DNA from: Methanobrevibacter sp.
Lineage (GTDB): Archaea > Methanobacteriota > Methanobacteria > Methanobacteriales > Methanobacteriaceae
DNA: 64,000 nt
Direction of reading: 5' to 3'
Assembly: GCF_017940815.1 (NCBI RefSeq)
Contig: NZ_JAGAXX010000051.1
Coordinates: 1-64,000 of the forward strand
Shown here: one piece after another, positions 44,358 to 64,000 of the stretch
Layout: every line of letters starts with the position of its first letter
Numbering within the stretch: position 1 is the first letter of the stretch
The notes under the pieces: model-generated
The model's database searches: none
Told to the model about the DNA's origin: nothing
What the model saw: the letters and a program-made list of their open reading frames with translations, nothing else
Made by a program: the position numbers and the translations under genes

Positions 44358-47300
44358 TTATTTTTTAAATTTTCTGATTGATGTTCCACAAGCTATGAAA
44401 AGAACCGCAAGCAATGCGACAATAGGATTACCTGTTGGCCTCATAATGTCTGTTTTGACAGGAGGCTTTTTAGGAACTGTCTTGTTGGTTTTGTTTACAG
44501 GAGTTTTAGGAGTTTTGTTTTCTATCACTTTGGTTTTATTGTGAGTTGTTTCATTATCAGTGAAATTTGAACCAGCAATGACAGTGTTTATGAAATCACC
44601 AACTTTAGTTGTCTTGAAGAACACTGTAAACTCACATGACTCGCCTGGATTTAAAACACCATCAAAATAGAATGTGTCTCCTTTTTTGGTCCATTTGCCA
44701 CCTTTATAACTCTTAAATATCAAACCGTCATAATCATTCTCTTTTACGAAGATATCTCCTAATTTACAGTCCCCTGTATTGGTAACTACAATCTTGAATG
44801 AAGTGATCTCACCTATTTTCACAATAGGAGTCAAAGAAATTTTTTTAACTGACAAGCTATGCCTGTACACTGTTGTAGTGTTGTTTGCTGTAGTGCCATT
44901 GACACCCTTGGAAGCTGCAACGACAGTATTTAGCAAGTTACCACTAGCTAAAGTCTTAAACCAGACTGTTAAAGTAGCATTTTTACCAATTCCAATAGTT
45001 CCATTGTATCTGAATACGTCGCCATCCTTAATCCATTTGCTACTGTCGGAATGCCTCACATATTGCAATTCTTTCGGATTGTACTTTTCATTTACAGTTA
45101 CATTGATTAGAGGACCTTTACCTGTGTTATTTACAGTTATATTGAATGCGACAGTGTCATGCACATAGACTGTCACGGTCTTGTTAAGATAGGTCTTGTT
45201 GACTGTCATGTTAGGCTTTTGGATAAGGAACAGGAACAGGCTTTGTGATGCTGGAGAAATCAAAGTAGAGAAATGATATAAAATGGTTGAACCATTCACC
45301 TCTTTTGTCTGGTCTTGATTTACTCTGAATCCATTGTCATAAAGTTCCAATATACGTTTCACTTCAGGGTGAACGCTTTTTCTAAAGTCACAGTCTGAAA
45401 AGATGTGAACTACCCTACTGTAATAGTCAGTACGAGAAATAGGTACCCAATTTGATTTGTCTTCGCTTTCAGGCCTTCCCTCCCATCCTTCAGGATATAA
45501 TGTGTAATTGTCCCCTTCATGAGAATATACGTCATCCATTGAATTGAATGAGTCATAAATCAATATTTTCAAGTATTCAACAATGCTTTCACCAGTTAAA
45601 ACATTGATTAAAGCATGCAAGGACTCATCATATGAACCATATTTAGGCAATAGGGAATTCCTTTCAAAGCACATCCCAATATATGAGTTGTTCATCAGAC
45701 GTGTAGAGTTACCAATATTATATTTTACGATTTCCGCCAATTCACTTGGAACAAATACTATGTTTTCCTTTGGAACTTCAATGTTTATTAGATCCAATGT
45801 TCCACTGTGGTAAATGTCATTACCATAACGCGCATTGTTATTGGAAAACTTGGAACTGTTAATTTTTGAATCATATGAATGAACAGCACCACCCATATTT
45901 GCGGAATTGTTTATGAAAGTACAGTTATCCATTTCAGTGTCAAGAGATGCAACAGCTCCCCCATAATTGACACATGAATTATTTACAAATTCCGTGTTTT
46001 GGATGAACTTATCTGCATGGAAATAGTAATAGTCACAAGAAACCGCTCCACCGGCATAGATTGCATGGTTCTTATAAAACACTGAATTGTTTATTATACA
46101 ATATCCCTCATCAATCCAATGAATGGCACCGCCCTTATATGCGAAGTTTTCAATGAATGTTGAATTATCGACTGTACCGTAAGCGTCTAAAGCAAGAGCC
46201 CCACCAACATAGTAAAGAGCATTGTTTTTTATGAAAGTAGACTCATTAATCAGAAGATTTTCTCCAATACCGTTAATAGCTCCACCTTCAACTGATGCAT
46301 TGTTTCCTTTGAATGTTGAGTTGTACACTACACCATGGTCTCCTTCCCAGTGAATTGCTCCACCATTGGATCCTGCAATGTTGTTTTCAAACTCACAGTT
46401 TTCCACTATTACATTGTGATCTTTAATGTTCAACGCACCACCATCCGCATAAGAACCTTGGCTAAATGCCATGTTCCAGGTGAATTTGGAATTGTTGATT
46501 AATGCATTGTCACCGTCACAATAGATGGCACCACCTTTTGCAGAACCTGGATTAGCATCTACCCAATTATTGAAAAACACTGAATTGTTAACTATACCAT
46601 TAGGAGCATCCCAATAGATAGCACCACCGGTACTCCTAGCCCTATTCTGGCCAAAATTGGTATGGTCTACTTCAACACCATCAGCTTTATAACTGACATA
46701 AATTCCAGCACCGCTTTCAGCATCATTTGAATCAAAATGGCTGTGTTCTATTTTATTGGCAGCATTAAGATAAAGCCCACCTCCAGATGAAGCGTGATTG
46801 TTGTGTAAACGAGATTGGTATATGTTTCCGTTTTCTCCTTCCCAGTAAACTGCACCACCTACTGAAGCTTTGTTTTCATCAATGTGCATGGAAAAAATTA
46901 ATTTCCCATCATCGCCTTTCCAATAGACAGCACCCCCATATTCCGCTTCATTAGCATGGAGTTCGGTATTGTCGATTATGCAATCATCTCCCTTGACGTA
47001 AACTGCACCTCCTTCTCTTTCAGCGTGGTTTTCATTGAATTTTGAGTTTGCAATATCTCCTTTTTTACCTCCCAAATAAACAGCCCCTCCATGAGCAGCT
47101 GAATTATTAGTGAATGTTGACTCAGCGATTAGCTGGTCTGTGATACTATCTGGAACATAAACCGCTCCTCCGAAAAACCTTGCGGTGTTTTCTATGAATT
47201 CACAATTTTGAATCTCAACGGGATTGCCAACATACAAAGCACCACCGTTACTGGTTGCACTATTTGACTTGAAAGTACAGTCAGTCAAACCACCGTCTTT

Positions 47301-47903
47301 TCCTTGCCAGTTTATTGCTCCCCCTGAGGCACCGTCATTGTCTATAAAGCTGCAGTTAAAGAAGTACACATTATCTCCATAAATATGGATAGGTCCATCT
47401 GATGTATCGTGTCCGTTGATAAATTTTATATCCATGAAAATGATATTGCTACCGGTGACCAACAACAGATTTTTAACTCCGCCCCCATCAATCGTATGGC
47501 CGTGACCATTGACTATAAGGGGCTTGTTGAATTGAATTCCCATATCCATAGCGGGATCATCATCCCATCTACCTGGAGTGTATTTATAGTCATGAGTCAA
47601 GTCGTACTCTCCATCTGCATAATAAGTATAGTACCACAGGTAGTAAAGAGGATCCTCACCAGCACCCAATACTTCCTCATTTGATGCACCCAACTTATTA
47701 TTAGACAATTTGGAGTTCTTTACATCATTAACACTTGCTTCATGAGTTTCTTCATGAACATCATTTTTTTCAACCATCAAGTTACTGTCATCTGTTCCGA
47801 CCATAGATTTTTCAGTCAAGTTATCTGCAGCCGCAACAGCATTTATACATAAGCATAATACACCAATTAATAATAAAATTGTTAATAGTTTATTAAATTT
47901 CAT
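44358..47903 (-). CDS. Beta-helix surface protein with thioester-like domain, two DUF11 repeats and membrane anchor
   Basis: An 1181-residue protein. Residues 1-25 are a signal peptide (MKFNKLLTILLLIGVLCLCINAVAAAD); ATG 47903 is chosen over 47936 because it begins this peptide and matches the paralogue at 51439. Beta-helix repeats with GGA(I/V)YW run from about 120 to 700. Then comes a roughly 170-residue domain with Cys745 (GMCFE) and Gln887 (PASQSLF), conserved in the paralogue and similar to thioester domains. Two DUF11 domains follow. The end is TGNPIVALLAVLFIACG plus RKFKK, a membrane anchor with basic stop. It should project from the cell surface. It shares about 310 bp of 5' DNA with the next gene. 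Confidence 0.85.
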   Translation of the reverse strand: MKFNKLLTILLLIGVLCLCINAVAAADNLTEKSMVGTDDSNLMVEKNDVHEETHEASVNDVKNSKLSNNKLGASNEEVLGAGEDPLYYLWYYTYYADGEYDLTHDYKYTPGRWDDDPAMDMGIQFNKPLIVNGHGHTIDGGGVKNLLLVTGSNIIFMDIKFINGHDTSDGPIHIYGDNVYFFNCSFIDNDGASGGAINWQGKDGGLTDCTFKSNSATSNGGALYVGNPVEIQNCEFIENTARFFGGAVYVPDSITDQLIAESTFTNNSAAHGGAVYLGGKKGDIANSKFNENHAEREGGAVYVKGDDCIIDNTELHANEAEYGGAVYWKGDDGKLIFSMHIDENKASVGGAVYWEGENGNIYQSRLHNNHASSGGGLYLNAANKIEHSHFDSNDAESGAGIYVSYKADGVEVDHTNFGQNRARSTGGAIYWDAPNGIVNNSVFFNNWVDANPGSAKGGAIYCDGDNALINNSKFTWNMAFSQGSYADGGALNIKDHNVIVENCEFENNIAGSNGGAIHWEGDHGVVYNSTFKGNNASVEGGAINGIGENLLINESTFIKNNALYYVGGALALDAYGTVDNSTFIENFAYKGGAIHWIDEGYCIINNSVFYKNHAIYAGGAVSCDYYYFHADKFIQNTEFVNNSCVNYGGAVASLDTEMDNCTFINNSANMGGAVHSYDSKINSSKFSNNNARYGNDIYHSGTLDLINIEVPKENIVFVPSELAEIVKYNIGNSTRLMNNSYIGMCFERNSLLPKYGSYDESLHALINVLTGESIVEYLKILIYDSFNSMDDVYSHEGDNYTLYPEGWEGRPESEDKSNWVPISRTDYYSRVVHIFSDCDFRKSVHPEVKRILELYDNGFRVNQDQTKEVNGSTILYHFSTLISPASQSLFLFLIQKPNMTVNKTYLNKTVTVYVHDTVAFNITVNNTGKGPLINVTVNEKYNPKELQYVRHSDSSKWIKDGDVFRYNGTIGIGKNATLTVWFKTLASGNLLNTVVAASKGVNGTTANNTTTVYRHSLSVKKISLTPIVKIGEITSFKIVVTNTGDCKLGDIFVKENDYDGLIFKSYKGGKWTKKGDTFYFDGVLNPGESCEFTVFFKTTKVGDFINTVIAGSNFTDNETTHNKTKVIENKTPKTPVNKTNKTVPKKPPVKTDIMRPTGNPIVALLAVLFIACGTSIRKFKK

Positions 47904-48079
47904 TTTTGCCCTCAAATGAGAGTCAAACCAAAACATAAACTAATCAAATACCTAATTTAATAATATAAATTAAATTTATTCCAGTTAATTTAAACCTCAT
48001 ATAAATAATATACACAATCATCAGCATGCAATTCAAAACGAGACACAACCAAATCCGAGTTTGATCATACTCATATCAA

Positions 48080-48661: not shown

Positions 48662-51439
48662 TTATTTTCTTTTAAATCTAATTACCGGAATGATCAATGC
48701 AGCCAATAACAATAACAATGGATTACCAGTTGCATTTTCAACATTGGATTTCACTGTTTTAGCTTTTGTTGTTTTAGTAACCTTTTTATGATCCACAGTC
48801 TTGTTTTCAGGAACATCAGTCTCATTTTCTGGAACATCTGTTTCATTTTCAGGAACGTCAGTCTCATTCTTAGGTACAACTGTCACATTAGTTGTGTTTG
48901 TACTGTTGACTGTATCATTAGTTAGATTATTTCCTGCAGTTACATTGTTGACCTTGAATCCCTCGGTTAATGCTTCAAATACAACAGTGAACTTAGCTGT
49001 TTGATTTGCTTTAAGAGCACCCTTGTAAACAAACTTGCCGTTGCCCTCATAAGACCATTTGCCTGTTTCATCGACAAAGTGATCATATTTCAAACCGTCA
49101 GTGTAATCGCTGTCAATAACATAAACACCTGTTAATGTACAGTTACCTGTATTGTTAACGGTAATGTCAAAGCTGACCAAGTCACCAACTTTTGCAGTTA
49201 CATTGTTTGATATTTTCTCAACAGTCATATTAGGCACAACTGAACTGATGTTGTATAACAGCAAGTTCTGGGTTGCTTGAGGCACAATAACGGATTTGAA
49301 TGTGTATTGCACGAAGGAACCATCATCCTGTTTTTCAATATATACGTCAGGCAGTGATTCGCCGTTGTTGAATCTGGCCAATACATCCTTAACGATTTCG
49401 TTATCGCTTGAAGTGTAATCGGTTTCAGTGAATATGTGCACTAATTTTGCGAAATCCTCATACTCATATTTATCACCATAATGATAAACCAATAATTTAA
49501 GGTATTCACCGACTTGCTCTTGAGTGACTGCGTTTTTGACTGCAGAAACATCACTTCTTAAAACACCGAATGTAGGTGCATCAGTGAGTTCCTCAACACA
49601 GTATGCAACATATCCGTCAGCATAAGCAATGTTTCCATCTTCACTGGTTGTAATCTTGATTTTTTCATTATTTCCAAATTGAACAGGAATTTGCGGAGTT
49701 GCACTTGTTGCCATCAATAAATCGTTGTCAATAATGACAAGCTCGCCTAAATTCTTGTTGCCGGACAATTCCAATGTGTCTTCAGCCAATACAACCCAAT
49801 TGTTGTTAGCCTGGTTTTCATTGAATTCACAATTTTTTAAGGTAGCGTTAATTGTATAAATTGCACCGCCGTGATCAGCACTGTTTTCATTAAAGATTGA
49901 GTCGACTACAGTGACATAATTCATACTGATGGCTCCACCATAACCCATAGCTCTGTTATTTTCAAATACACAGTTGGATACAGTGTCTCCAGTACTTGCA
50001 CTGGATATAGCTCCACCACCGTAGTGATTTGCAATATTGTTTTTGAAAGTACAACCTTCAATAGTGTTATTATTACCAACCAATTGGATAGCACCAGAGG
50101 AGAGACCTACATTACCTTCAAATGTTGAATCGATGAAATGAATATTTTGAGCATATGAAAATATAGCTCCTCCTTTACTTTCATCAACTCCGTTTTTATC
50201 AAATATACAGTTATTTACAGTTACGTTTGTGATATTCTTACCGGATACAACTGGTGCAATATAAATTGCACCACCTCTTGCGGCCCAATTCTTATCAAAG
50301 GAACAATTTTCAATTAAGTTATCACTATTTCTAACATATATTGCTCCACCATTATCCCTAACAGCATTATTGCTGAACTTGGAATTTGAGATGGTGGTAT
50401 TAAACCCTTGGGAATAAATTGCTCCTCCAAAATTTGCATTTGAATTATCGTTAAATATTTGATTATTAGTAAAAGTACAATTGTCTATTACATTATTTGG
50501 ATTTACAGTGATTATTGCTCCACCATAACTTTTTGCAGTGTTGTGGTCGAAAGTGTTATTTTTTATTAAATTGTCACCAGCACGAGCGTATATTCCTCCA
50601 GCATATCCATTACTAGCACGATTTCTTGTAAATGAGTTATCAGCAATGAGAGCTCCACCATAATTATAGATGTTTATTGCTCCACCTTGACTTCCGGCAT
50701 TATTTTCAAACTTATTGTTAATAATTTTAGCATATGGTCCGTCAATTGCTATTGCACCACCATAAGTTGCTTCACATCCTTCAAAGTTTGAGTTTGTGAT
50801 TTGTGTGTTTTTACCTTTTGAGTAGATTCCACCACCATATGTGATAGGGTCATTGGTTTTTATGGTACAACCGTCAACAGTTAAATTATTTCCAGAGTTG
50901 CAGATTGCTCCACCACACCAGTTATTTGCACCTTGTGCGGTTGTTGCAACAACTCCCCCACCATTAATCAATGTCAATCCTTGAAGTGTAATTCCATTCT
51001 TTGAAAGCACAAATATAGACTCTTGTTTTTGAGCATCAAATATTGGATTTGCTCCTTCATAAGCCTTTACGGTAGTGTTTTCCTTCAAGTCAATGTTACG
51101 GTTTTTTGCACCTTTGTAAGTACCGTCCATTACATAAATAACATCATTTTCCTTATAGTTTGCGTTATTTGTTACTGATTTTATATCAGAATAAGGACTT
51201 GTTTCAGATCCATCTCCTCCGGATGCACCTGCCTTAACATACCAACTGTTACCTGCACTCAATACCTCATCATCTGATGACTGTAACTTGTCAGAAACGT
51301 CTTCATGTTCAACCGCCAAATTTCCATCTTCTGCTCCAACCGCATGACTGTCCACATCATCAGCAGCTGCAACAGCACCCATAAATAAGCATATTACACT
51401 AATTAATAATAAAATCTTAAATAGTTTATTAAATTTCAT
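48662..51439 (-). CDS. Beta-helix surface protein with thioester-like domain, one DUF11 repeat and membrane anchor
   Basis: A 925-residue paralogue of the 44358 gene. Its order is signal peptide (MKFNKLFKILLLISVICLFMGAVAAAD), a DUF1565-like opening (WYVKAGASGGDGSETSPYSDI), beta-helix to about 560, a thioester-like domain with Cys614 (AYCVEE) and Gln724 (QATQNLL), one DUF11 repeat (NMTVEKISNNVTAKVGDLVSF), three NETDVPE repeats as a stalk, and the anchor TGNPLLLLLAALIIPVI plus RFKRK. ATG 51439 is preferred to 51451. It is monocistronic, with an upstream region nearly copied from the neighbour. Confidence 0.85.
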   Translation of the reverse strand: MKFNKLFKILLLISVICLFMGAVAAADDVDSHAVGAEDGNLAVEHEDVSDKLQSSDDEVLSAGNSWYVKAGASGGDGSETSPYSDIKSVTNNANYKENDVIYVMDGTYKGAKNRNIDLKENTTVKAYEGANPIFDAQKQESIFVLSKNGITLQGLTLINGGGVVATTAQGANNWCGGAICNSGNNLTVDGCTIKTNDPITYGGGIYSKGKNTQITNSNFEGCEATYGGAIAIDGPYAKIINNKFENNAGSQGGAINIYNYGGALIADNSFTRNRASNGYAGGIYARAGDNLIKNNTFDHNTAKSYGGAIITVNPNNVIDNCTFTNNQIFNDNSNANFGGAIYSQGFNTTISNSKFSNNAVRDNGGAIYVRNSDNLIENCSFDKNWAARGGAIYIAPVVSGKNITNVTVNNCIFDKNGVDESKGGAIFSYAQNIHFIDSTFEGNVGLSSGAIQLVGNNNTIEGCTFKNNIANHYGGGAISSASTGDTVSNCVFENNRAMGYGGAISMNYVTVVDSIFNENSADHGGAIYTINATLKNCEFNENQANNNWVVLAEDTLELSGNKNLGELVIIDNDLLMATSATPQIPVQFGNNEKIKITTSEDGNIAYADGYVAYCVEELTDAPTFGVLRSDVSAVKNAVTQEQVGEYLKLLVYHYGDKYEYEDFAKLVHIFTETDYTSSDNEIVKDVLARFNNGESLPDVYIEKQDDGSFVQYTFKSVIVPQATQNLLLYNISSVVPNMTVEKISNNVTAKVGDLVSFDITVNNTGNCTLTGVYVIDSDYTDGLKYDHFVDETGKWSYEGNGKFVYKGALKANQTAKFTVVFEALTEGFKVNNVTAGNNLTNDTVNSTNTTNVTVVPKNETDVPENETDVPENETDVPENKTVDHKKVTKTTKAKTVKSNVENATGNPLLLLLAALIIPVIRFKRK
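48810..48872. repeat. Three 21-bp tandem repeats encoding NETDVPE
   Basis: Units at 48810-48830, 48831-48851 and 48852-48872 differ by a few bases. They encode an acidic stalk before the membrane anchor. Copy number could vary between strains. Confidence 0.85.
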
Positions 51440-52157
51440 TTTTTCCCTCAAATGAGAGTCAAATCAAAATATAAACTAATCAAACAATAATTTAATAATA
51501 ATATAAATTAAATTTATTTCCAGTTAATTTAAACATCATACAAATAATATACACAATCATCAGCATGCTAATCAAGACGAAACATGACTAAATCATTTTA
51601 ATCATGCCCATGATGAGCAGCACTAGACCGGAGAATACCAATCATATTCAGGTAAAATTTTATCTGAACATTTGATTTTTTATATTCACTATAATATTGA
51701 TTTAACCCAATAAATCTTTAATATATTATTTAAATTAATACCTTTTTTAATTAAATTTTAAAATTTAATCAAAATTAGATAATAAAAATTATCCAATCCA
51801 CAATAAATATATACAAAATACAATATTATTGCATATTTAACATATTTTAATAATAATATTTAAAGTTTAATATCAAAAATATTTATTAAAATTATTAAAA
51901 TATTGAACATATTTAAAATTAAATAAAAAAAATATTTTTTAAAATAAGTACATTTTAATTGAAAAATAAAGATTAAAATGTTAAAAAAAATATACATATT
52001 AAAAATATATCACAAAATTATGAAAATTATCAAAATACAAAAAAATTTCAAAATACAAATATTTCAAATTAAGGTATAATATTTTATACTAAATTAAGAA
52101 ATATATTACAAAAAATAAACAGAAAAAATTATAAAAAAAATAGTGAAAAGAAATGGA
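51440..52157. other. Long gene-free AT-rich region with duplicated 5' segment
   Basis: About 718 bp. The part from 51440 to about 51765 is the second copy of the duplicated upstream region. From there to 52150 it is almost pure A/T with no ORF, RNA or repeat I can recognise. Confidence 0.7.
51618..51650. repeat. 33-bp block identical to 48080-48112
   Basis: The second copy, about 180 bp upstream of the 51439 start, at the same relative position as the first copy. Confidence 0.75.
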
Positions 52158-53386: not shown

Positions 53387-53402
53387 GGTTAAGTTAATAA
53401 CC
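53387..53402 (-). terminator. Hairpin at the stop codon of the giant DUF11 gene
   Basis: GGTTA-AGTTAA-TAACC, a 5-bp stem ending in the stop region, followed on the minus strand by T7 and T7 runs. Confidence 0.5.
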
Positions 53403-56400
53403 TATTTTTTAATTTTAAGGGATGTGCTATAATATGTGTCCTTATAATAAGCAACAATATTATATTTTCCTTTTTTCAAGTTTTTAAGAGATAAAGAAGC
53501 TACACCTTTCTTATTGGTTTTGACTTTATATGTTTTTCCTTTAAATTTGATAACAACAGTCTTACCAACATAAGGTTTGCCTTTGGAATTGGTGAATTTA
53601 ATGGAATACTTGAATTTGATAGCTTTATGTTTTAAAACTTTTTCATCAAATACAACCTTATTAAACTTAACAACTCCATTAACTTTATTTCCAACTTTTT
53701 TAACTTTTATGGTTGCAATTCCCTTGCTATTAGTTTTCGCTGTGTATGTTTTTCCCAAGTATTTGAAAGTAACTTTCTGGTTTTTAAGCAATTTGCCTTT
53801 TTTAGTTAAGAATTTAACCTTAACTTTTACAACAGACTCTTTAGCTTTTGCTTTAACCTTATCAGATGAAGCATGGTTGTTTTTGACATTTGTGTCTTTT
53901 TCATTAGCACTTACATCTACATTGTTTTCAATAGTTCCAGCACTAATTACTTTAACAACAAGCTCCAGTGTTTTTGTTTCTCCTTTAGCTAAATTGCCTA
54001 CATTCCAAACATTTCCAGAGTAACCTTTGACAGTACCTTGGAGTTTGACCAATTTGCTTAATTTTTCAGTTACTTTAACACCTGTTGCATCACTTGGACC
54101 GTTATTAGTCACAGTAATTGTGAATTTAATCAAGTCACCAACGGTTGCGGTAGTCTTATCAACCTTTTTAGTGATTACAAGATCCACCACAGGAACAGCA
54201 GTAACATTATCTGATGAAGCGTTGTTATTGGATTTGTTTGTATCGTTTTCATTACCTGAAACGGTTACATTATTTTCAATGATTCCATCAGCAATGACTT
54301 TTACAACCAATACCAATTCCTTGGATTCACCTTTAGCCAAGTCACCAACAGTCCACACATGACCATCATAACCTTCAACAGGTTTAGTTAACTCAACAAG
54401 TTTGGATAACTCTTCAGTCACTTTAACACCAGTAGCCTTGGAAGGACCATTGTTTTTAACAACAATAGTGAAAGTGATTTCATCACCAACATTAGCGGTT
54501 GTCTTATCAACAGTTTTGGAGATTTCTAAATCGACTACAGGAATTGCAGTCACATTTTCGGCAGTAGCATTATTGTTAGACATGTTTGTATCGTTTTCAG
54601 CAGATGAAACTGATACGACGTTTTCAACAGTGCCGTTGTTGATAATCTCAACTACTAATTTCAAGGTTGCAGTAGCGTCCTTAGCCAAATCACCAACAGT
54701 CCAAACGTTGGTGCCTCCATCATATTCAGCATCACCAAAGTCAATAACTTTAACAAGATCACTCAATACGTCAGTTACTTTAACATCAGTAGCATCTGAA
54801 GGGCCTTTGTTAGTAACGGTAATTGTGTATGTTACATTTTCGCCGACATTAGCTGTGGTTCTGTCAACCACTTTAGTGATTTCAAGGTCAACTATAGGCA
54901 ATGCAGTCACATTATCGGATGAAGCATTGTTATTGGATTTGTTTGTATCATTTTCATTGGAAGCAACGATTACAGCGTTTGCTATGGTTCCGTTTCCAAT
55001 TACTTTAACAACAAGTACCAATTCTTTGGATTCGCCTTTAGCCAAGTCACCGACAGTCCATACATGACCGTCATAACCTTCAACATGTTTTGTTAACTCA
55101 ACAAGTTTGGATAACTCTTCAGTCACTTTAACACCAGTAGCCTTGGAAGGACCATTGTTTTTAACAACAATAGTGAATGTTATTTCATCTGTGACGTTTA
55201 CAACTGTTTTGTCAACTGTTTTAGTTATTTCAAGGTCAACCACAGGAATTGCAGTAACATTGTCGGAAGTTGTGTTTACATCAGTGTCGTTTTCATTTGA
55301 GTTTACGAATACGCTGTTTTCAACAGTACCATTATTGATAACTTCAACAACTAACTTTAAGGTTGCAGTAGCGCCTTTAGCCAAGTTGCCAACAGTCCAA
55401 ACATTAATGGACACATCGTAATCAGCATCGCCAAAGTCAACAACTTTGACAAGATCGCTTAACTTCTCAGTCACTTTAACGCCAGTAGCGTCAGAAAGAC
55501 CGTTGTTGGTTACAGTGATTGTGTATGTTACATTTTCTCCGACATTTGCAGATTTGACATCGACTGTCTTGGTAATGTTTAATATTACCAATGGTTTTGC
55601 ATCAACGTCAGGAGCACTAGCATTGTTATTTGTTTTGTTAGTGTCGTTTTCTTTAGATGTGACTGATACGCTGTTCGGAATTGTACCATTTGAAATGACA
55701 GTAACAACTAATTTCAATGTTTTAGTTTCTCCTTTAGCCAATGTGCCAACAGTCCATACGCTGCCGTCATATCCATCCACTTTTTCAGCTAATTTAACAA
55801 GGTCTGATAATTTTTCAGCCACTTTGACATCAGTAGCTGTGGACGGACCTTTGTTGGTTACAGTGATTGTGTAGGTTACATTGTCACCAACAAGAACGGA
55901 AGTCTTGTCAACTGTTTTTGTGATTACAAGATCAACAACAGGAACAGCAGTAACATTATCAGCAGTATCATTGTTGTTTGTTATGTTAGTATCATTTTCA
56001 GTTGAGTTTACAATAGCAACGTTTTCAACAGTACCATTGTTAATGATTTCGACAACTAAGTTTAAGGTTGCAGTAGCATCCTTAGCCAAATCACCAACAG
56101 TCCAAACATTAGTGCCTACATCATAATCTGCATTACCGTAGTCCATGACTTTAACGAGATCACTTAACTTTTCAGTCACTTTAACGCCAGTAGCATTGGA
56201 AGGACCTTTGTTGGTTACAGTGATTGTGTAAGTTACCTTTTCACCAACATTAGCAGTAGTTACATTAACCACTTTAGTGATTTCAAGGTCAACTACAGGA
56301 ACAGCAGTAACATTATCCGCAGTATCATTGTTATTGGATTTGTTGGTATCATTTTCAGTAGAGTTTACAGCTACAAAGTTCTCAACAGTACCGTTAGCAA

Positions 56401-59400
56401 TAATCTTAACAACTAATTCTAACTTTTTGGATTCACCATTAGCCAAATCACCAACAGTCCATACATGACCGTCATAACCTTCAACAGTTCCAACCAATTC
56501 AACAAGCTCGGATAACTCTTCAGTCACTTTAACACCAGTAGCCTTGGAAGGGCCTTTGTTGGTTACAGTGATTGTGTAAGTTATTTGCTCACCGACATTA
56601 GCTTTGGTTGTATTAACCACTTTAGTGATTTCTAAATCTACAACAGGAACAGCAGTGACATTGTCTGAAGTGTCATTGTTGTTGGATTTGTTGGTATCAT
56701 TTTCAGTGGAATTTACAGCTACAAAGTTTTCAACAGTACCGTTATTGATGATTTCAACAACTAAGTTTAAGGTTGCAGTAGCACCTTTAGCCAAATCACC
56801 AACAGTCCAAACATTAGTGCCTACATCATAATCTGCTTTGCCATAGTCAACAACTTTAACAAGATCACTTAACTTTTCAGTCACTTTAACGCCAGTAGCG
56901 TTAGAAGGACCTTTATTGGTTACAGTGATTGTGTAAGTTACCTTTTCACCAACGTTAGCTTTTGTTGTATTAACAACCTTAGTGATTTCAAGGTCAACCA
57001 CAGGAACAGCAGTAACATTATCCGCAGTATCGTTGTTGTTGGATTTGTTGGTATCATTTTCAGTGGAGTTTACAGCTACAAAGTTCTCAACAGTACCGTT
57101 AGCAATAATTTCAACGACTAATTCTAACTTTTTGGATTCACCTTTAGCCAAATCACCAACAGTCCAGACATGACCATCATAACCTTCAACATCTTTGACC
57201 AATTTAACAAGGTCAGATAATTCCTCAGTCACTTTAACACCGGTTGCTTTGGAAGGACCTTTATTTGTTACAGTGATTGTGTAAGTAATTTGCTCACCAA
57301 CATTAGCAACAGTCTTGTCAACTGTCTTGGTTACTTCAACATCAACTACAGGAACAGCAGTGACATTATCAGAAGTTGCATTGTTATTGGTTATGTTAGT
57401 GTCGTTTTCGGTAGAGTTTACAATAGCAACGTTTTCAACAGTACCGTTATTGATGATTTCAACAACTAAGTTTAAGGTTGCAGTAGCATCCTTGGCCAAA
57501 TCACCAACAGTCCAAACGTTAGTGCCTACATCATAATTAGCAGTACCATAGTCTACAACTTTAACAAGACCACTTAACTTCTCAGTCACTTTAACGCCAG
57601 TAGCATTAGAAGGACCTTTATTGGTTACAGTGATTGTGTAAGTTACCTTTTCACCAACATTAGCCTTAGTAGTATTAACCACTTTAGTGATTTCCAAGTC
57701 AACAACAGGAACAGCAGTAACATTGTCCGCAGTGTCATTATTGTTAGATTTGTTGGTATCATTTTCGGTAGAAGTTACAGCTACAAAGTTCTCAACAGTA
57801 CCATTAGCAATGATCTTAACAATCAAAACTAACTCTTTGGATTCACCTTTAGCCAAATCACCAACAGACCATACATGACCATCATAACCTTCGACAGGTT
57901 CAGTTAACTCAACAAGTTTGGACAATTCTTCAGTCACTTTAACGCCAGTAGCATTGGAAGGACCATTGTTGGTTACAGTGATTGTGTATTTAATTTGTTC
58001 ACCAACATTAGCAGTAGTTACATTAACCACTTTAGTAACTTCAACATCAACTACAGGAACAGCAGTAACATTATCAGAAGTTGCATTGTTATTGGTTATG
58101 TTAGTGTCGTTTTCAGTAGAGTTTACAACAGCAACGTTTTCAACAGTACCATTATTGATAATTTCAACAATTAAATTTAAAACAACAGTTTCACCTTTAT
58201 TTAAGCTGCCAATATTCCAGATGTTAGTTTTTACATCATAATCAGCTTTGCCGAAGTCAACAACTTTAACAAGATCACTTAACTTTTCAGTCACTTTAAC
58301 GCCAGTAGCATTAGAAGGACCTTTATTGGTTACAGTGATTGTGTAAGTAATTTGCTCACCAACATTAGCCTTGGTAGTATTAACCACTTTGGTAATTTCA
58401 AGGTCAACAACAGGAACAGCAGTGACGTTATCGGAAGTTGCGTTTTTATCTGTGTCGTTTTCATTAGAGTTTGCAATAGCTACGTTTTCAACAGTACCGT
58501 TATTGATGATTTCAACAACTAACTTTAAGGTTGCGGTAGCGCCTTTAGCTAAATCTCCAATTGTCCAGACATTAGTTTTTACATCGTAATCAGCATCACC
58601 AAAGTCTACAACTTTAACAAGATCACTTAACTTCTCAGTCACTTTAACACCAGTAGCGTTTGAAAGACCATTGTTGGTTACAGTGATTGTGTAGGTTACA
58701 TTTTCACCGACATTAGCAACAGTTCTGTCAACCACTTTAGTGATATTCAAGATAACTAATGAGTTAACTTTAACATCAGGAGCGCTAGCATTGTTATTGG
58801 TTTTGTTTGTGTCGTTTTCTTTGGATGTGACATTAACACTGTTTGAAATTGTACCGTTTGAAAGAACAGTGACAACTAAGGTCAAAGTTTTTGATTCTCC
58901 TTTAGCCAATGTGCCAACATTCCATATTTTACCATCATAACCTTCCACATCCTTAGCCAATTTAACGAGATCAGATAATTTTTCTGATACTTTAACGTCA
59001 GTAGCAGTGGATGGGCCTTTGTTGGTTACAGTGATTGTGTAGGTTATATTGTCTCCAACAAGAACAGCAGTCTTATCTACTGTTTTTGTGATTTCAACAT
59101 CAACTACAGGAACAGCAGTGACATTGTCTGAAGTAGCATTGTTATTTGTTATATTTGTGTCGTTTTCGGTAGAGTTTACAACAGCAACGTTTTCAACAGT
59201 ACCGTTATTGATAATTTCAACAACTAACTTTAAGGTTGCAGTAGCGCCTTTAACCAAATCACCAACAGTCCAAACATTAGTGCCTACATCATAGTCAGCA
59301 TCACCAAAGTCAACAACTTTAACAAGATCACTTAACTTTTCAGTCACTTTAACGCCAGTAGCATTAGAAGGACCTTTATTGGTTACAGTGATTGTGTAAG

Positions 59401-62400
59401 TTACCTTTTCACCAACATTAGCCTTGGTAGTATTAACCACTTTAGTGATTTCCAAGTCAACTACAGGAACAGCAGTAACGTTGTCTGAAGTGTCATTGTT
59501 GTTGGATTTGTTGGTATCATTTTCATTAGAAGTTACAGCTACAAAGTTTTCAACAGTACCGTTAGCAATAATCTTAACAACTAATTCTAACTCTTTGGAT
59601 TCGCCTTTAGCCAAATCGCCAACGGTCCATACATGACCGTCATAACCTTCAACAGTTCCAACCAATTCAACAAGCTTGGATAATTCCTCAGTTACTTTAA
59701 CGTCAGTAGCTTTGGAAGGACCATTGTTAGTAACAGTAATTGTATATTTAACTTGTTCACCAACGTTAGCCTTGGTAGTATTAACCACTTTAGTGATTTC
59801 AAGGTCAACTACAGGTCTTGCAGTAACATTATCCGCAGTATCATTGTTGTTGGATTTGTTTGTGTCTTCTTCTGTAGAGGTTACAGCCACAAAGTTTTCA
59901 ACAGTACCATTGTTGATAATTTCAACGACTAATTCTAACTTTTTGGATTCACCATTAGCCAAATCACCAACAGTCCAAACATGACCATCATAACCTTCAA
60001 CATCTTTTACCAATTTAACAAGTTTGGATAACTCTTCAGTCACTTTAACGCCGGTAGCCTTGGAAGGGCCTTTATTGGTTACAGTGATTGTGTAAGTAAT
60101 TTGCTCACCAACATTAGCAACGGTCTTGTCAACTGTCTTGGTTACTTCAACATCAACTACAGGAACAGCAGTGACGTTATCAGAAGTTGCATTCTTAAGG
60201 GTTTCGTTTTCTTTAGCGTTAACGAATGCAATGTTTTCAACAGTACCATTGTCAATCACTTCAACAACCAATTTCAAGGTTGCAGTAGCGCCTTTAGCCA
60301 AATCACCAACAGTCCAAACGTTATTCACATAGTTAGCACCACCAACGTCAACGACCTTAACGAGATCACTTAACTTCTCAGTAACTTTAACATCACTTGC
60401 ATCAGAAAGACCATTGTTTTTAACGGTAATAGTGTAAGTCACATTTTCACCGACATTAGCAACAGTTCTGTCCACGGTTTTGGTGATGTCAAGGATAACA
60501 AGAGGTTTAGCTTCAACATCAGGAGCGCTAGCGTTGTTATTGGATTTGTTAGTGTCGTTTTCTTTTGAAGTTACGGCAACAATATTTGAAATAATACCAT
60601 TATTGATTACTTTAACAGTTAAAACTAAATCCTTGGACTGGCCTTTAGCCAATGTGCCGACAGTCCATACGCTACCATCATATCCTTCTACATCTCTAAC
60701 CAATTTAACAAGTTCAGAAAGTTTTTCTGAAACTTTAACGTTGGTAGCAGTACTTGGACCATTGTTCTTAACTGTAATGACATATGTGAATTCGTCACCG
60801 ACAAGAACTGTGGTTTCACCTTCAAGTTTCTTGGTGATTTCAAGATCCACAACAGGGTTAGCGGTCACATTGTCTGAAGTTGCATTCTTAATGGTTTCGT
60901 TTTCTTTAGCGTTTACGAAAACACTGTTTTCAACAGTACCATTGTCAATCACTTCAACGACAAGTTTCAAGGTTGCGCTTGCACCTTTAGCCAGATCGCC
61001 AACAGTCCAAACGTTATTCACATAGTTAGCACCTCCAAAGTCAACGACCTTAACGAGATTGCTTAACTTCTCAGTAACTTTAACATCACTTGCATCAGAA
61101 AGACCATTATTTTTAACGGTAATGGTGTAAGTCACATTATCGCCGACATTAGCAACGGTTTTGTCAACGGTTTTAGTGATGTCCAAAATAACCAATGGAT
61201 CAACGGTCACGTCAGGTGCGTTAGCTGTCTTTTCGGTTTCGTTTTCGCTGCATTTGACAACAGCTGTGTTTTTGACTGTGCCTATATCATTTGCAACAAC
61301 AACAAGTTTCAAGGTAGCTTTAGCATCCTTGTCCAATTTGTCAATAGTCCAGGTGTTTCCGCTTAAGGAACCGACACTAGCTACTGATTTGGTTGCATCG
61401 ATTGTTGCAGGACCGGTCACCACATCATTAACCACAATTACAGTGGCAGTACTTGGGCCTTTGTTGGTAACTGTAATGGTATAGGTTATTTCATCGCCAA
61501 CCAATACTTTTACTTCACCTTCAACGACTTTTGTGATTTCCAAGTCGACAACAGGTTTGACTGTAATTTTAACTTCTTTTGTAGCGTCATTGTAGTTAAC
61601 TTCATCCACTTTTGTAGTCACTTTGAGTGTGTAGTTTCCAGGCTCTAAGTCCTTAACTATTATTTCATAATTGTCTCCAGGACCTTCAACTTCACCAGTT
61701 TTAACAGGTTCACCATCCTTCAATACGACGTAAGTAATTCCTGTTGCATTTTCAGTGGTTGCAGGTGCTTTTACATCTTCTCCGTGATTGATGACAATGT
61801 CATCGATATCAACAGCTGAATTTGCCTTGTTTACAGTCAAGGTTGATTCGTTTGTTGCCCCATCATAGTAATTTTCCGGATCGGTTGTCAATTTTACTGT
61901 GTATGAACCGGCGTCCAATTTGGTTTTAACATCAATCTTTTCACCAGGTTTAATGTATCCTTCTTCAACAACACCAGAACCATTTATAATCTCATATTTT
62001 ATTTTATCAGCGTGAGTTGAGGTTACATTAACGCTTATAGGGTCTCCATAGTTTACTGTTGTGTCATTTGCTGCAACAGTTGATGGAGCATTTTTGACAA
62101 TCACAGTGACTTCGTTACTTTCACTAGGACCGAGTTCCCCATTTCCGTCATAGGTTGCCTTGAAGACATAGGTTCCAGGGGTCAATTTTCCTAGGTTGAC
62201 TTCACTGTTTACTGCAAAGTCATCTTTTTCCAATTCGCCGTTCTTGTTGAGGCGTGCAGTTCCATTTGCATTGCTTGGAGTGACAACATTTGCAATCACA
62301 ACATCGGTTCCATAGGTCACGGTCACTTGTGACTTTTCACCGTTTGCAGTGATTTCAATTTGGCTTGTCGGAAGTACTTTTAAAGTCTTGCCATTGTTGT

Positions 62401-64000
62401 TGCTTGACTCATAGTATGTTGGGTTTTCATTGTATTTAGCATAAATGTTCAAACTTCCACTATTTAAAGGAGTATATGTATATGTACCATCAGCATTTAC
62501 AGTACCTATGACATTTTCACCATCATAGAGTGTGAAAGTTCCCTCATGAATCTCGTTAGTGCCGTTGAATGCATGAGGAGTGATGACTACGCTTTCCCCT
62601 AAAACGATTGTGGACTCGCTTAAGTCAACCGTGGTTGTTGTAGGGTACTTGATAACTTTAACATCTTCAGAGTCTGAGTTACTTCTTTCGTATTTTCCGT
62701 CAACACCATTATAAACAGCATTGATAGTGTATTCGCCAGCAGGTTGATCTTTGAACACTAAAGGGTCATTTACATTTTGAGTAATGGTAGTAGTACCATA
62801 AGTATATGTAACTGTACCTTCAGTTATAACATTACCATTATTATCTTTAACAGTAGGTGTTAATGTTGCACTGCCATCTACATAGATTGTCTTTCCACCT
62901 TCCAATGTTAATGTGGTTGGATTCAGGTTTACAGTAATAGTGCCCACACCTGAACTAGGTATGTACCAATTAGTATTAACAGTATTGGTTACGCTTACAG
63001 TATAAGTATCAGCAGCCAAATTGTTTACAGTAATGGTATATTTATTTCCACTACCTGTTACTGAATATTGACTTCTAGGAACAGCATTACCTTTTGAATC
63101 AGTGATTGTTATTGCATTGATTCCGGTTGAGTTCACCAATGTAACATCCACACTTGCAGGGCTTCCATAATAAATATTATCGTTTCCAACAGTTACGCTG
63201 GAAGGACCTTTTACGCGTAGGTCTTCACTGTCTGTAGTTGCCCCACCATAATAGATACTGTCTCCAACATAACCATGATATTCGGCATATACAGTGTAGT
63301 CTCCCACATCACTTGGAATCCATGGAATCACATCATTAACATCCCTGTTTTCAAAAAGAGGAGTTCCGTCTGAAAGGAAATATGAAACGGTACCATGTGT
63401 GACTTTATTACCGTTCTGATCCAATATGTTCACTGACAAGTCAACGGAATCAGGCAAGGTAATCTCATGCTCGGATATTATCAAATCAGCAGTTGTCTTT
63501 CTGTAAACGGTAAATTCCATAGCACCCGGAATCTCTGCACCACCAGTCATGTGGAAATACAAGTCAGTGGTGCCCGGTTGGATATTTGAGAATGTATGAT
63601 AGAAATAAGCGTTACCGCTTGCTGCCTCAAAAGGAGTTTCTGAGCTTATATGAAGGCCACTTCTTAATGCAGCACTACTGTATCCACTACCACTTTTAAC
63701 GTGAGGTTCAATTATAAATAGTACTGAACCTCCTTCAACAGGATATTGAGGAGTGTAATACACTAAAATATAGTCATGCCCATTGTTTTTACCCTCAAGT
63801 TTAACACCTTTGCTAACGCTTTCATACTTAGCAAGCTCATTTTTAACAATTTGAGTTTCAGGTTCAACATCATAAGTATGAGTGTATGTCAATACTTCAT
63901 TATCATTACTAGCACCCAGCATATCGCCGGATTTGCTTAAAGAAACAGAATTTTGCAGATTCTTAGAGGAATTTTGTTCATTGGCGGATGACTCAGAAAT
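53402..64000 (-). CDS. Giant DUF11-repeat surface protein, N-terminus outside the window
   Basis: About 3530 residues visible. The frame stays open to position 64000, so the true start and signal peptide lie beyond the edge; the ATG at 63922 is internal. From the N-terminus there is a unique region with a jelly-roll look (to about 63200), then about seven Ig-like domains (63200-61560), then 22 DUF11 domains of about 117 residues, each opening V(D/I)LxITK and ending ENxTxxxxNNxT. Three Lys-rich Ig-like domains close the protein with no membrane helix. Many Asn-X-Ser/Thr sites. Probably a long wall-bound adhesin or stalk. Tandem repeats may also lead to copy-number change or assembly errors. 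Confidence 0.88.
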   Translation of the reverse strand: MSESSANEQNSSKNLQNSVSLSKSGDMLGASNDNEVLTYTHTYDVEPETQIVKNELAKYESVSKGVKLEGKNNGHDYILVYYTPQYPVEGGSVLFIIEPHVKSGSGYSSAALRSGLHISSETPFEAASGNAYFYHTFSNIQPGTTDLYFHMTGGAEIPGAMEFTVYRKTTADLIISEHEITLPDSVDLSVNILDQNGNKVTHGTVSYFLSDGTPLFENRDVNDVIPWIPSDVGDYTVYAEYHGYVGDSIYYGGATTDSEDLRVKGPSSVTVGNDNIYYGSPASVDVTLVNSTGINAITITDSKGNAVPRSQYSVTGSGNKYTITVNNLAADTYTVSVTNTVNTNWYIPSSGVGTITVNLNPTTLTLEGGKTIYVDGSATLTPTVKDNNGNVITEGTVTYTYGTTTITQNVNDPLVFKDQPAGEYTINAVYNGVDGKYERSNSDSEDVKVIKYPTTTTVDLSESTIVLGESVVITPHAFNGTNEIHEGTFTLYDGENVIGTVNADGTYTYTPLNSGSLNIYAKYNENPTYYESSNNNGKTLKVLPTSQIEITANGEKSQVTVTYGTDVVIANVVTPSNANGTARLNKNGELEKDDFAVNSEVNLGKLTPGTYVFKATYDGNGELGPSESNEVTVIVKNAPSTVAANDTTVNYGDPISVNVTSTHADKIKYEIINGSGVVEEGYIKPGEKIDVKTKLDAGSYTVKLTTDPENYYDGATNESTLTVNKANSAVDIDDIVINHGEDVKAPATTENATGITYVVLKDGEPVKTGEVEGPGDNYEIIVKDLEPGNYTLKVTTKVDEVNYNDATKEVKITVKPVVDLEITKVVEGEVKVLVGDEITYTITVTNKGPSTATVIVVNDVVTGPATIDATKSVASVGSLSGNTWTIDKLDKDAKATLKLVVVANDIGTVKNTAVVKCSENETEKTANAPDVTVDPLVILDITKTVDKTVANVGDNVTYTITVKNNGLSDASDVKVTEKLSNLVKVVDFGGANYVNNVWTVGDLAKGASATLKLVVEVIDNGTVENSVFVNAKENETIKNATSDNVTANPVVDLEITKKLEGETTVLVGDEFTYVITVKNNGPSTATNVKVSEKLSELVKLVRDVEGYDGSVWTVGTLAKGQSKDLVLTVKVINNGIISNIVAVTSKENDTNKSNNNASAPDVEAKPLVILDITKTVDRTVANVGENVTYTITVKNNGLSDASDVKVTEKLSDLVKVVDVGGANYVNNVWTVGDLAKGATATLKLVVEVIDNGTVENIAFVNAKENETLKNATSDNVTAVPVVDVEVTKTVDKTVANVGEQITYTITVTNKGPSKATGVKVTEELSKLVKLVKDVEGYDGHVWTVGDLANGESKKLELVVEIINNGTVENFVAVTSTEEDTNKSNNNDTADNVTARPVVDLEITKVVNTTKANVGEQVKYTITVTNNGPSKATDVKVTEELSKLVELVGTVEGYDGHVWTVGDLAKGESKELELVVKIIANGTVENFVAVTSNENDTNKSNNNDTSDNVTAVPVVDLEITKVVNTTKANVGEKVTYTITVTNKGPSNATGVKVTEKLSDLVKVVDFGDADYDVGTNVWTVGDLVKGATATLKLVVEIINNGTVENVAVVNSTENDTNITNNNATSDNVTAVPVVDVEITKTVDKTAVLVGDNITYTITVTNKGPSTATDVKVSEKLSDLVKLAKDVEGYDGKIWNVGTLAKGESKTLTLVVTVLSNGTISNSVNVTSKENDTNKTNNNASAPDVKVNSLVILNITKVVDRTVANVGENVTYTITVTNNGLSNATGVKVTEKLSDLVKVVDFGDADYDVKTNVWTIGDLAKGATATLKLVVEIINNGTVENVAIANSNENDTDKNATSDNVTAVPVVDLEITKVVNTTKANVGEQITYTITVTNKGPSNATGVKVTEKLSDLVKVVDFGKADYDVKTNIWNIGSLNKGETVVLNLIVEIINNGTVENVAVVNSTENDTNITNNNATSDNVTAVPVVDVEVTKVVNVTTANVGEQIKYTITVTNNGPSNATGVKVTEELSKLVELTEPVEGYDGHVWSVGDLAKGESKELVLIVKIIANGTVENFVAVTSTENDTNKSNNNDTADNVTAVPVVDLEITKVVNTTKANVGEKVTYTITVTNKGPSNATGVKVTEKLSGLVKVVDYGTANYDVGTNVWTVGDLAKDATATLNLVVEIINNGTVENVAIVNSTENDTNITNNNATSDNVTAVPVVDVEVTKTVDKTVANVGEQITYTITVTNKGPSKATGVKVTEELSDLVKLVKDVEGYDGHVWTVGDLAKGESKKLELVVEIIANGTVENFVAVNSTENDTNKSNNNDTADNVTAVPVVDLEITKVVNTTKANVGEKVTYTITVTNKGPSNATGVKVTEKLSDLVKVVDYGKADYDVGTNVWTVGDLAKGATATLNLVVEIINNGTVENFVAVNSTENDTNKSNNNDTSDNVTAVPVVDLEITKVVNTTKANVGEQITYTITVTNKGPSKATGVKVTEELSELVELVGTVEGYDGHVWTVGDLANGESKKLELVVKIIANGTVENFVAVNSTENDTNKSNNNDTADNVTAVPVVDLEITKVVNVTTANVGEKVTYTITVTNKGPSNATGVKVTEKLSDLVKVMDYGNADYDVGTNVWTVGDLAKDATATLNLVVEIINNGTVENVAIVNSTENDTNITNNNDTADNVTAVPVVDLVITKTVDKTSVLVGDNVTYTITVTNKGPSTATDVKVAEKLSDLVKLAEKVDGYDGSVWTVGTLAKGETKTLKLVVTVISNGTIPNSVSVTSKENDTNKTNNNASAPDVDAKPLVILNITKTVDVKSANVGENVTYTITVTNNGLSDATGVKVTEKLSDLVKVVDFGDADYDVSINVWTVGNLAKGATATLKLVVEVINNGTVENSVFVNSNENDTDVNTTSDNVTAIPVVDLEITKTVDKTVVNVTDEITFTIVVKNNGPSKATGVKVTEELSKLVELTKHVEGYDGHVWTVGDLAKGESKELVLVVKVIGNGTIANAVIVASNENDTNKSNNNASSDNVTALPIVDLEITKVVDRTTANVGENVTYTITVTNKGPSDATDVKVTDVLSDLVKVIDFGDAEYDGGTNVWTVGDLAKDATATLKLVVEIINNGTVENVVSVSSAENDTNMSNNNATAENVTAIPVVDLEISKTVDKTTANVGDEITFTIVVKNNGPSKATGVKVTEELSKLVELTKPVEGYDGHVWTVGDLAKGESKELVLVVKVIADGIIENNVTVSGNENDTNKSNNNASSDNVTAVPVVDLVITKKVDKTTATVGDLIKFTITVTNNGPSDATGVKVTEKLSKLVKLQGTVKGYSGNVWNVGNLAKGETKTLELVVKVISAGTIENNVDVSANEKDTNVKNNHASSDKVKAKAKESVVKVKVKFLTKKGKLLKNQKVTFKYLGKTYTAKTNSKGIATIKVKKVGNKVNGVVKFNKVVFDEKVLKHKAIKFKYSIKFTNSKGKPYVGKTVVIKFKGKTYKVKTNKKGVASLSLKNLKKGKYNIVAYYKDTYYSTSLKIKK
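53860..61556. repeat. 22 tandem ~350-bp repeats encoding DUF11 domains
   Basis: Repeat openings on the minus strand (V-D-L-E-I-T-K and variants) recur every 340-370 bp. Central units are nearly identical over long stretches, and the outer ones are more diverged. Units alternate between a VNTTKANVGE type and a VDKTVANVGE type, with every few units a V-I-L-D/N-I-T-K type, suggesting duplication of multi-repeat blocks. Confidence 0.85.

Follow-up and report, generated by a model that had tools for sequence, protein, structure and literature searches.

A probable archaeal branch of the Gram-positive thioester domain in two adhesin-like surface proteins of Methanobrevibacter

Two neighbouring adhesin-like surface proteins of Methanobrevibacter sp. 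share a domain that is likely to be a compact archaeal thioester domain (TED; PF08341), located beside an isopeptide-type DUF11 stalk and acting as a covalent adhesin, with the bond and its target being inferred. We regard the archaeal domain as a divergent new branch of the TED, a known domain type. Both genes lie within a window of 64,000 nucleotides, by which we mean the whole stretch of DNA that was analysed, and the coordinates of their features are collected in Table 1.

Both proteins are encoded on the minus strand. Protein 1 consists of a signal peptide, a beta-helix, the TED-like domain, two DUF11-type domains and a C-terminal tail with a TGNP motif, a hydrophobic stretch and basic residues. 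Between the beta-helix and the DUF11 part each protein contains an unnamed region, which matched no Pfam or NCBIfam model above its cut-off. The first-pass annotation, made from sequence alone, had claimed a common domain at this site, and this claim held, as BLASTP revealed homology of the two regions with 30% identity and 49% positives over 167 columns (E = 2e-17). The interval then named for the domain, 45243-45800, corresponds to residues 713-898 of protein 1, and the Gln898 codon ends with base 45243. The claimed Cys-Gln spacings of 142 and 110 residues also held (Cys756/Gln898 and Cys618/Gln728). The residue numbers given at that time (Cys745/Gln887 and Cys614/Gln724) are lower than those of the full ORFs by 11 and 4, because the count had begun at an internal ATG (MKFNKLL... 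and MKFNKLF...). The proposed motif P-x-A-(S/T)-Q-x-L was confirmed only in part: PQATQNL of protein 2 fits and PASQSL of protein 1 does not. In both proteins the TED-like domain is internal and not located at the N-terminal, distal tip. The alignment behind the family profile, whose E-values are given in Table 1, includes both copies.

Table 1. Features of the two adhesin-like proteins within the window
Feature	Position	Strand	Basis or remark
Adhesin-like surface protein 1 (1192 aa)	44358..47936	-	ORF; Pfam Chlam_PMP, DUF11, DUF7507
Beta-helix region, protein 1 (approximate limits)	45837..47549	-	Chlam_PMP repeats E 7.7e-25
TED-like domain, protein 1 (about residues 713-910)	45207..45800	-	family profile E 6.8e-43; homologous to the protein 2 domain
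Cys756, candidate thioester Cys, protein 1	45669..45671	-	motif MCFE
Gln898, candidate thioester Gln, protein 1	45243..45245	-	motif SQSLF
DUF11/DUF7507 stalk domains, protein 1	44604..45206	-	PF01345 7e-18, PF24346 1.7e-9
C-terminal TGNP-hydrophobic-basic putative anchor, protein 1 (approximate)	44361..44444	-	sequence; no Pfam match
Adhesin-like surface protein 2 (929 aa), architecture of protein 1 but one DUF11	48662..51451	-	ORF; Pfam
Beta-helix region, protein 2 (approximate limits)	49787..51244	-	Beta_helix PF13229 2.1e-32
TED-like domain, protein 2	49241..49687	-	family profile E 1.2e-44; AF2 model of residues 560-742, pLDDT 85.3
Cys618, candidate thioester Cys, protein 2	49598..49600	-	motif YCVE; fits [YFL]C-hydrophobic-hydrophilic (PMC4450167)
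Gln728, candidate thioester Gln, protein 2	49268..49270	-	motif TQNLL
DUF11 (CLIPPER-type) domain, protein 2	48878..49225	-	PF01345 3e-9
C-terminal TGNP-hydrophobic-basic putative anchor, protein 2 (approximate)	48665..48739	-	sequence

Using the protein 2 domain alone as query, relatives were detected in 57 of the 139 genomes of the family. Within the phylum, profile A1, which comprises 83 members, matched 72 of 152 genomes; these belong to a single family (Methanobacteriaceae) and to four genera. When the protein 2 domain served as the seed, profile searches recovered about 90 relatives. The genome to which the window belongs contains four copies of the domain (a fifth row in the search is the second piece of one copy). 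The family occurs in two builds: long beta-helix/TED/DUF11 proteins like proteins 1 and 2, and proteins of about 300 aa with a signal peptide, the domain at the N-terminus, a stalk rich in Asn, Thr and Glu and a similar C-terminal anchor. In genome G019 two thioester-type domains with Cys and Gln (L060 and L066) are located about 8.4 kb apart, and both are reported within an open frame of 5674 aa.

In member-by-member scans, PF08341, the TED family, was the Pfam family matching most members (8 of 83 and 25 of 93), and in NCBIfam the model matching most members was 'thioester-forming surface-anchored protein' (5 of 83). Of 67 genomes of the genus, 12 had a PF08341 match above the curated cut-off, one of these 12 including a bacterial contaminant contig; none of the 14 control genomes had such a match. 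Ten PF08341 loci were returned. Nine belong to the family seeded from the window (E 1e-18 to 1e-37) and possess both Cys and Gln; the tenth, L093, is the clostridial contaminant contig. The PF08341-positive archaeal relatives are short proteins, and database annotations of some of them may already exist, because they exceed Pfam's cut-off. The window domains themselves did not reach the curated cut-off of PF08341, and no TED model matched them; their assignment to the TEDs is based on transitive homology via the family together with the retained Cys and Gln.

The contaminant (L093/L172; OMSA01000111.1, uncultured Methanobrevibacter RUG823) is a contig of an archaeal MAG and evidently of clostridial origin. 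The bacterial TED located on it is 88-92% identical to TEDs of a Clostridia MAG, and a scan with this TED as query supplied the comparison sequences.

Aligned by HHalign with 14 clostridial TED sequences, the archaeal family gave a P-value of 2.5e-5 and a score of 39.3, whereas 60 column-shuffled controls did not exceed 17.6 and the reversed alignment scored 11.5. In the alignment with the clostridial TEDs the Cys positions coincide, and the ATQxxIW helix is matched to the archaeal xQxxIW helix. Restricted to the 74 long-form members, the comparison still reached a score of 34.2, compared with at most 13.4 for shuffles. The window subfamily alone showed a weak match which did not span the Cys. 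Comparisons with single bacterial TEDs were mostly weak, and for this reason the HHalign case rests on the profile pair. A profile search of the PDB (177,635 sequences) with profile A3 gave 4c0z, 'ancillary protein 2' (the TED of Cpa), as best match with an E-value of 0.016, and its YCF, IWYYTD and QNL were aligned in collinear order with the Cys, helix and Gln motifs of the archaeal family. No TED was retrieved when the first alignment, A1, was used instead; A3 is richer in short relatives than A1. Homology of the archaeal family to TEDs is shown by these data. The first-pass annotation had inferred a thioester domain of the Gram-positive type from order and spacing alone, which is a weak basis; as a statement of TED homology the claim is now supported by independent tests, and the bond, its target and covalent adhesion are still inference.

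The fold was analyzed with predicted structures. For the relative L102 a model with a pLDDT of 94.4 and a pTM of 0.90 was obtained, and Foldseek against the PDB returned TEDs at all of the ranks 1 to 7 (5a0g, 5a0d, 5a0n) with probabilities of 0.96-1.00 and TM values up to 0.50. The match to 5a0g had a probability of 1.00, a TM value of 0.50 and an E-value of 5e-4, and the eighth match, with an E-value of 0.3, is noise. The TED fold, a beta-barrel and a three-helix bundle with Cys on strand C and Gln on strand Q, is met in this relative as far as a predicted model can tell. A structure prediction had been proposed for about residues 700-900 of protein 1; it was run on the domain of protein 2, and Foldseek found no significant match for this model in the PDB, with the TED 6fwy at ranks 3 and 10 and a probability of about 0.25. 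The predicted model begins with strands and has the Cys at the end of strand 55-59, followed by another strand, three helices and further strands, with Gln169 directly in front of the last of these; about 7 residues lead from the last helix to the next strand. This is the order of elements in the TED topology used for comparison (PMC6194298).

A referee might object that adhesin-like proteins are repetitive and compositionally biased, and that the two proteins resemble each other by chance or low complexity without sharing a real domain. This explanation is refuted by the pairwise E-value of 2e-17, by the occurrence in 72 of 152 genomes and by the confident folded models, and can practically be ruled out.

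Conservation of Cys and Gln was counted in an alignment of 144 domains, 134 of which could be scored at both positions. Both residues are present in 111 domains and both are missing in 17, with Cys only in 5 and Gln only in 1; after removal of redundancy at 80% the corresponding numbers are 84, 15, 5 and 1. Loss of the Cys or the Gln in relatives had been named in advance as a result that would refute the thioester; the inference withstood this check, since the two residues are mostly kept together or lost together. Ranked by corrected mutual information, the Cys-Gln pair is second among 10,731 column pairs, and the association has a Fisher's p of 3e-16 if relatedness is ignored. A tree-based count gave about 7 changes for Cys and about 8 for Gln, and the joint loss was not significant on its own (p 0.25; low power). 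Among five independent supported pairs Cys and Gln go together two or three times, and in no pair do they change in opposing directions. Conservation and co-loss are shown by the counts; joint change on the tree is suggestive and not significant.

According to the founding survey of the bacterial domains, no residues of TEDs other than Cys and Gln are fully conserved (PMC4450167). The spacing between them ranges from 105 to 144 residues across the archaeal members that have both. The Cys motif [YFL]C-hydrophobic-hydrophilic is fitted literally by 87 of these 111 members, among them protein 2; protein 1 has Met in place of Tyr, Phe or Leu, and we counted the motif as present. The Gln motif Q-zeta-Phi-Phi, which is termed weak in TED papers, was found in 106 of 111, and the residue preceding the Gln is often not hydrophobic, the window copies included. 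The helix motif TQxxPhiW has retained Gln and Trp in 44 and Trp in 81 of the 111 members, and is degraded in both window copies, with Ala or Ser for Gln and His for Trp. The archaeal branch has conserved residues of its own, Asn (93 of 111), Tyr (92) and Lys (99), all of which are found in both window copies in addition to the candidate Cys and Gln. The conserved Asn covaries with Cys and Gln, and it is conceivable that it forms the hydrogen bond to the thioester in place of the Gln of the helix motif. The Lys of the YLKIL helix is retained in 16 of the 17 copies without Cys and Gln, and is therefore probably part of the fold and not of the Cys/Gln chemistry.

These counts bear on the alternative that proteins 1 and 2 possess the TED fold without its chemistry, and that the domain is a module for non-covalent recognition or a spacer without a thioester. 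In favor of this view, 17 of 134 relatives lack Cys and Gln, two of them in the window's own genome, and neither window copy has an intact helix motif. However, the window copies retain Cys, Gln and the conserved Asn, Tyr and Lys, both residues are jointly present in 111 members, and the motif is not fully conserved in bacterial TEDs either, its Gln and Trp being dispensable for bond formation in Cpa (PMC4450167). We consider a fold without chemistry unlikely and prefer a thioester-forming domain. Thioester formation in proteins 1 and 2, the reaction with a partner and the identity of this partner are inferred, and no experiment stands behind them.

Other assignments of the conserved residues were rejected. 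A Cys-His-Asp hydrolase or transglutaminase-like enzyme, with a triad as in papain or in the pseudomurein endopeptidases of methanogens, is suggested by the succession of Cys, His and Asp in both window proteins and by the transglutaminase-like and papain domains of other methanogen adhesin-like proteins (PMC11532034). A conserved catalytic His is nevertheless absent: the column is occupied by Trp in 81 of the 111 Cys- and Gln-containing members and by His in only 10. In addition, no peptidase or transglutaminase model matches and Foldseek gives TEDs, which leaves hardly any room for such an enzyme. The same column shows that the His of HIF(S/T)xxD, which the first-pass annotation had listed among the conserved anchors, is not a feature of the family. 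A disulfide within the domain was rejected because the protein 2 domain has a single Cys. A thioester of the alpha-2-macroglobulin type was rejected on account of the missing CxEQ motif and the 105-144 residues between Cys and Gln. Alpha-2-macroglobulin and complement-type proteins, including archaeal homologues, use the same Cys-Gln thioester chemistry for covalent target binding, but their Cys and Gln share one CxEQ motif (PMC8416519) and the fold of the archaeal TED is different.

Copies without Cys and Gln were also observed, in part next to intact ones. The window's own genome contains two further members that have lost both residues, L118:1339-2337 (+) and L119:1523-2926 (+) on contigs C33 and C48; both are short proteins with an N-terminal dead TED, and the one at L119 ends in a long hydrophobic helical region. 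At a minimum of six loci (L087, L130, L133, L072, L049 and L064) a short gene whose product has both Cys and Gln adjoins a paralogue without Gln, in which the Cys is missing too wherever that part is visible. A dead TED beside a live one might serve as decoy or inhibitor or stand for another binding mode.

Among the known systems, the archaeal domain resembles class I TEDs (PF08341; CpTIE 5A0G, PnTIE 5A0N, Cpa 4C0Z) in the position of Cys before and Gln after the three-helix bundle, in the YC-hydrophobic-E/N and QN-hydrophobic motifs, and in a spacing which overlaps the 129 residues of CpTIE (Cys138-Gln267). It differs from them in that the archaeal models have no clear helix alpha0, the marker of class I, that many members, the window copies among them, have only a weak TQxxPhiW or none, and that the branch has its own conserved Asn, Tyr and Lys. 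The host is an archaeon, the domain of the window proteins is not at the tip, and no LPXTG was seen. With class II TEDs (BaTIE, SaTIE, EfmTIE86 and the clostridial L177-L190) it has the head fold (as predicted), the Cys motif and, in part of its members, the helix motif in common, and some clostridial Gln motifs (TQNYAL) resemble the archaeal TQNLFL, but the beta-sandwich insertion is missing in the window model. We use the label 'compact TED' because the predicted models are without both of these class-marking insertions. The TIE proteins of Gram-positive bacteria, which contain thioester, isopeptide and ester domains, resemble the window proteins, each of which is likewise an anchored surface protein that unites a TED with a candidate isopeptide domain (DUF11/CLIPPER). 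In contrast to them, the window proteins have an additional beta-helix before the TED, and their C-terminus is an archaeal tail instead of a sortase signal. Since their TED lies inside the protein and not at the distal N-terminus, we did not class them with the TIE proteins. Their beta-helix, DUF11/archaeal Big domains and membrane anchor are shared with the adhesin-like proteins of Methanobrevibacter and Methanosphaera, whereas a thioester domain is not mentioned in two domain surveys of methanogen proteins (PMC11532034, PMC10939349).

A Lys-Asn isopeptide bond has been demonstrated in a DUF11 domain (PMC12617251). In the crystallised triad of 9IFR (Lys715/Asp748/Asn806) the offsets from Lys are +33 and +91. 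Protein 2 has Lys746, Asp780 and Asn835/836 in its DUF11 domain, with offsets of +34 and +89/90. The spacings are nearly those of the crystallised triad, and an isopeptide bond is possible on the strength of the sequence only; the bond itself is not shown. Adjoining the two genes is a protein of 3506 aa with many similar DUF11-like repeats (window 53402-63922, minus strand), which is perhaps a long stalk of the isopeptide type.

The mechanism we propose is modelled by analogy on SfbI (PMC4450167), and every step beyond the fold and the residues is inference. The Cys side chain would attack the side-chain amide of the Gln with release of ammonia (-17 Da), and the resulting thioester would be buried between the barrel and the three-helix bundle, connecting the N-terminal strands with the last strand. 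An amine of a docked partner, probably a lysine, would then attack the thioester and displace the Cys, so that an intermolecular isopeptide bond to the Gln results and the archaeon is tethered covalently. The beta-helix in front of the TED would probably provide a first, non-covalent recognition, and the DUF11 stalk behind it, which may carry isopeptide cross-links of its own, would lead to the membrane anchor. Along the protein this would give a series of recognition, covalent lock and stalk. The partner may be a hydrogen-producing bacterium, a protozoon or a glycoprotein of the host.

The internal position of the domain, between two rigid modules and adjoining a candidate isopeptide stalk, could also be explained by a thioester whose only role is to stabilise the protein or to sense redox state or mechanical force, without binding a partner. 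Thioesters are reactive, however, related isopeptide bonds already give stability, and in the short relatives the TED forms the N-terminal tip as in bacterial adhesins. This explanation is very unlikely, and we retain the covalent adhesin as the preferred reading.

The founding survey described TEDs as occurring 'exclusively in Gram-positive bacteria' (PMC4450167). In the open-access literature that was searched, from which most subscription papers and preprints are missing, we found no paper on TEDs of the PF08341 type in archaea. When the archaeal profile was compared with 399 genomes of the phylum of the Clostridia, a single match was obtained (E 0.002 over 44 positions) and treated as noise. 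This near absence, together with the confinement of the domain to a single archaeal family, agrees with a domain that was transferred long ago from Gram-positive bacteria and has since diverged, a possibility that is inferred and has no tree behind it. A bolder reading, to which we would give as much weight as to its opposite, is that methanogens of the gut and rumen type possess a large, diversified family of covalent adhesins which bind partner microbes or host molecules irreversibly, were acquired from Gram-positive neighbours, and were elaborated into beta-helix/TED/isopeptide-stalk proteins with dead paralogues beside live ones.

With a family definition built on Cys, Gln and their co-loss, many proteins without a known function can be annotated, among them the large open frame in G019. 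If the thioester does form, covalent adhesion occurs in archaea as well, and the hold of Methanobrevibacter on hydrogen-producing partners or on the gut surface would gain a chemical handle in the form of a Cys-dependent covalent adduct.
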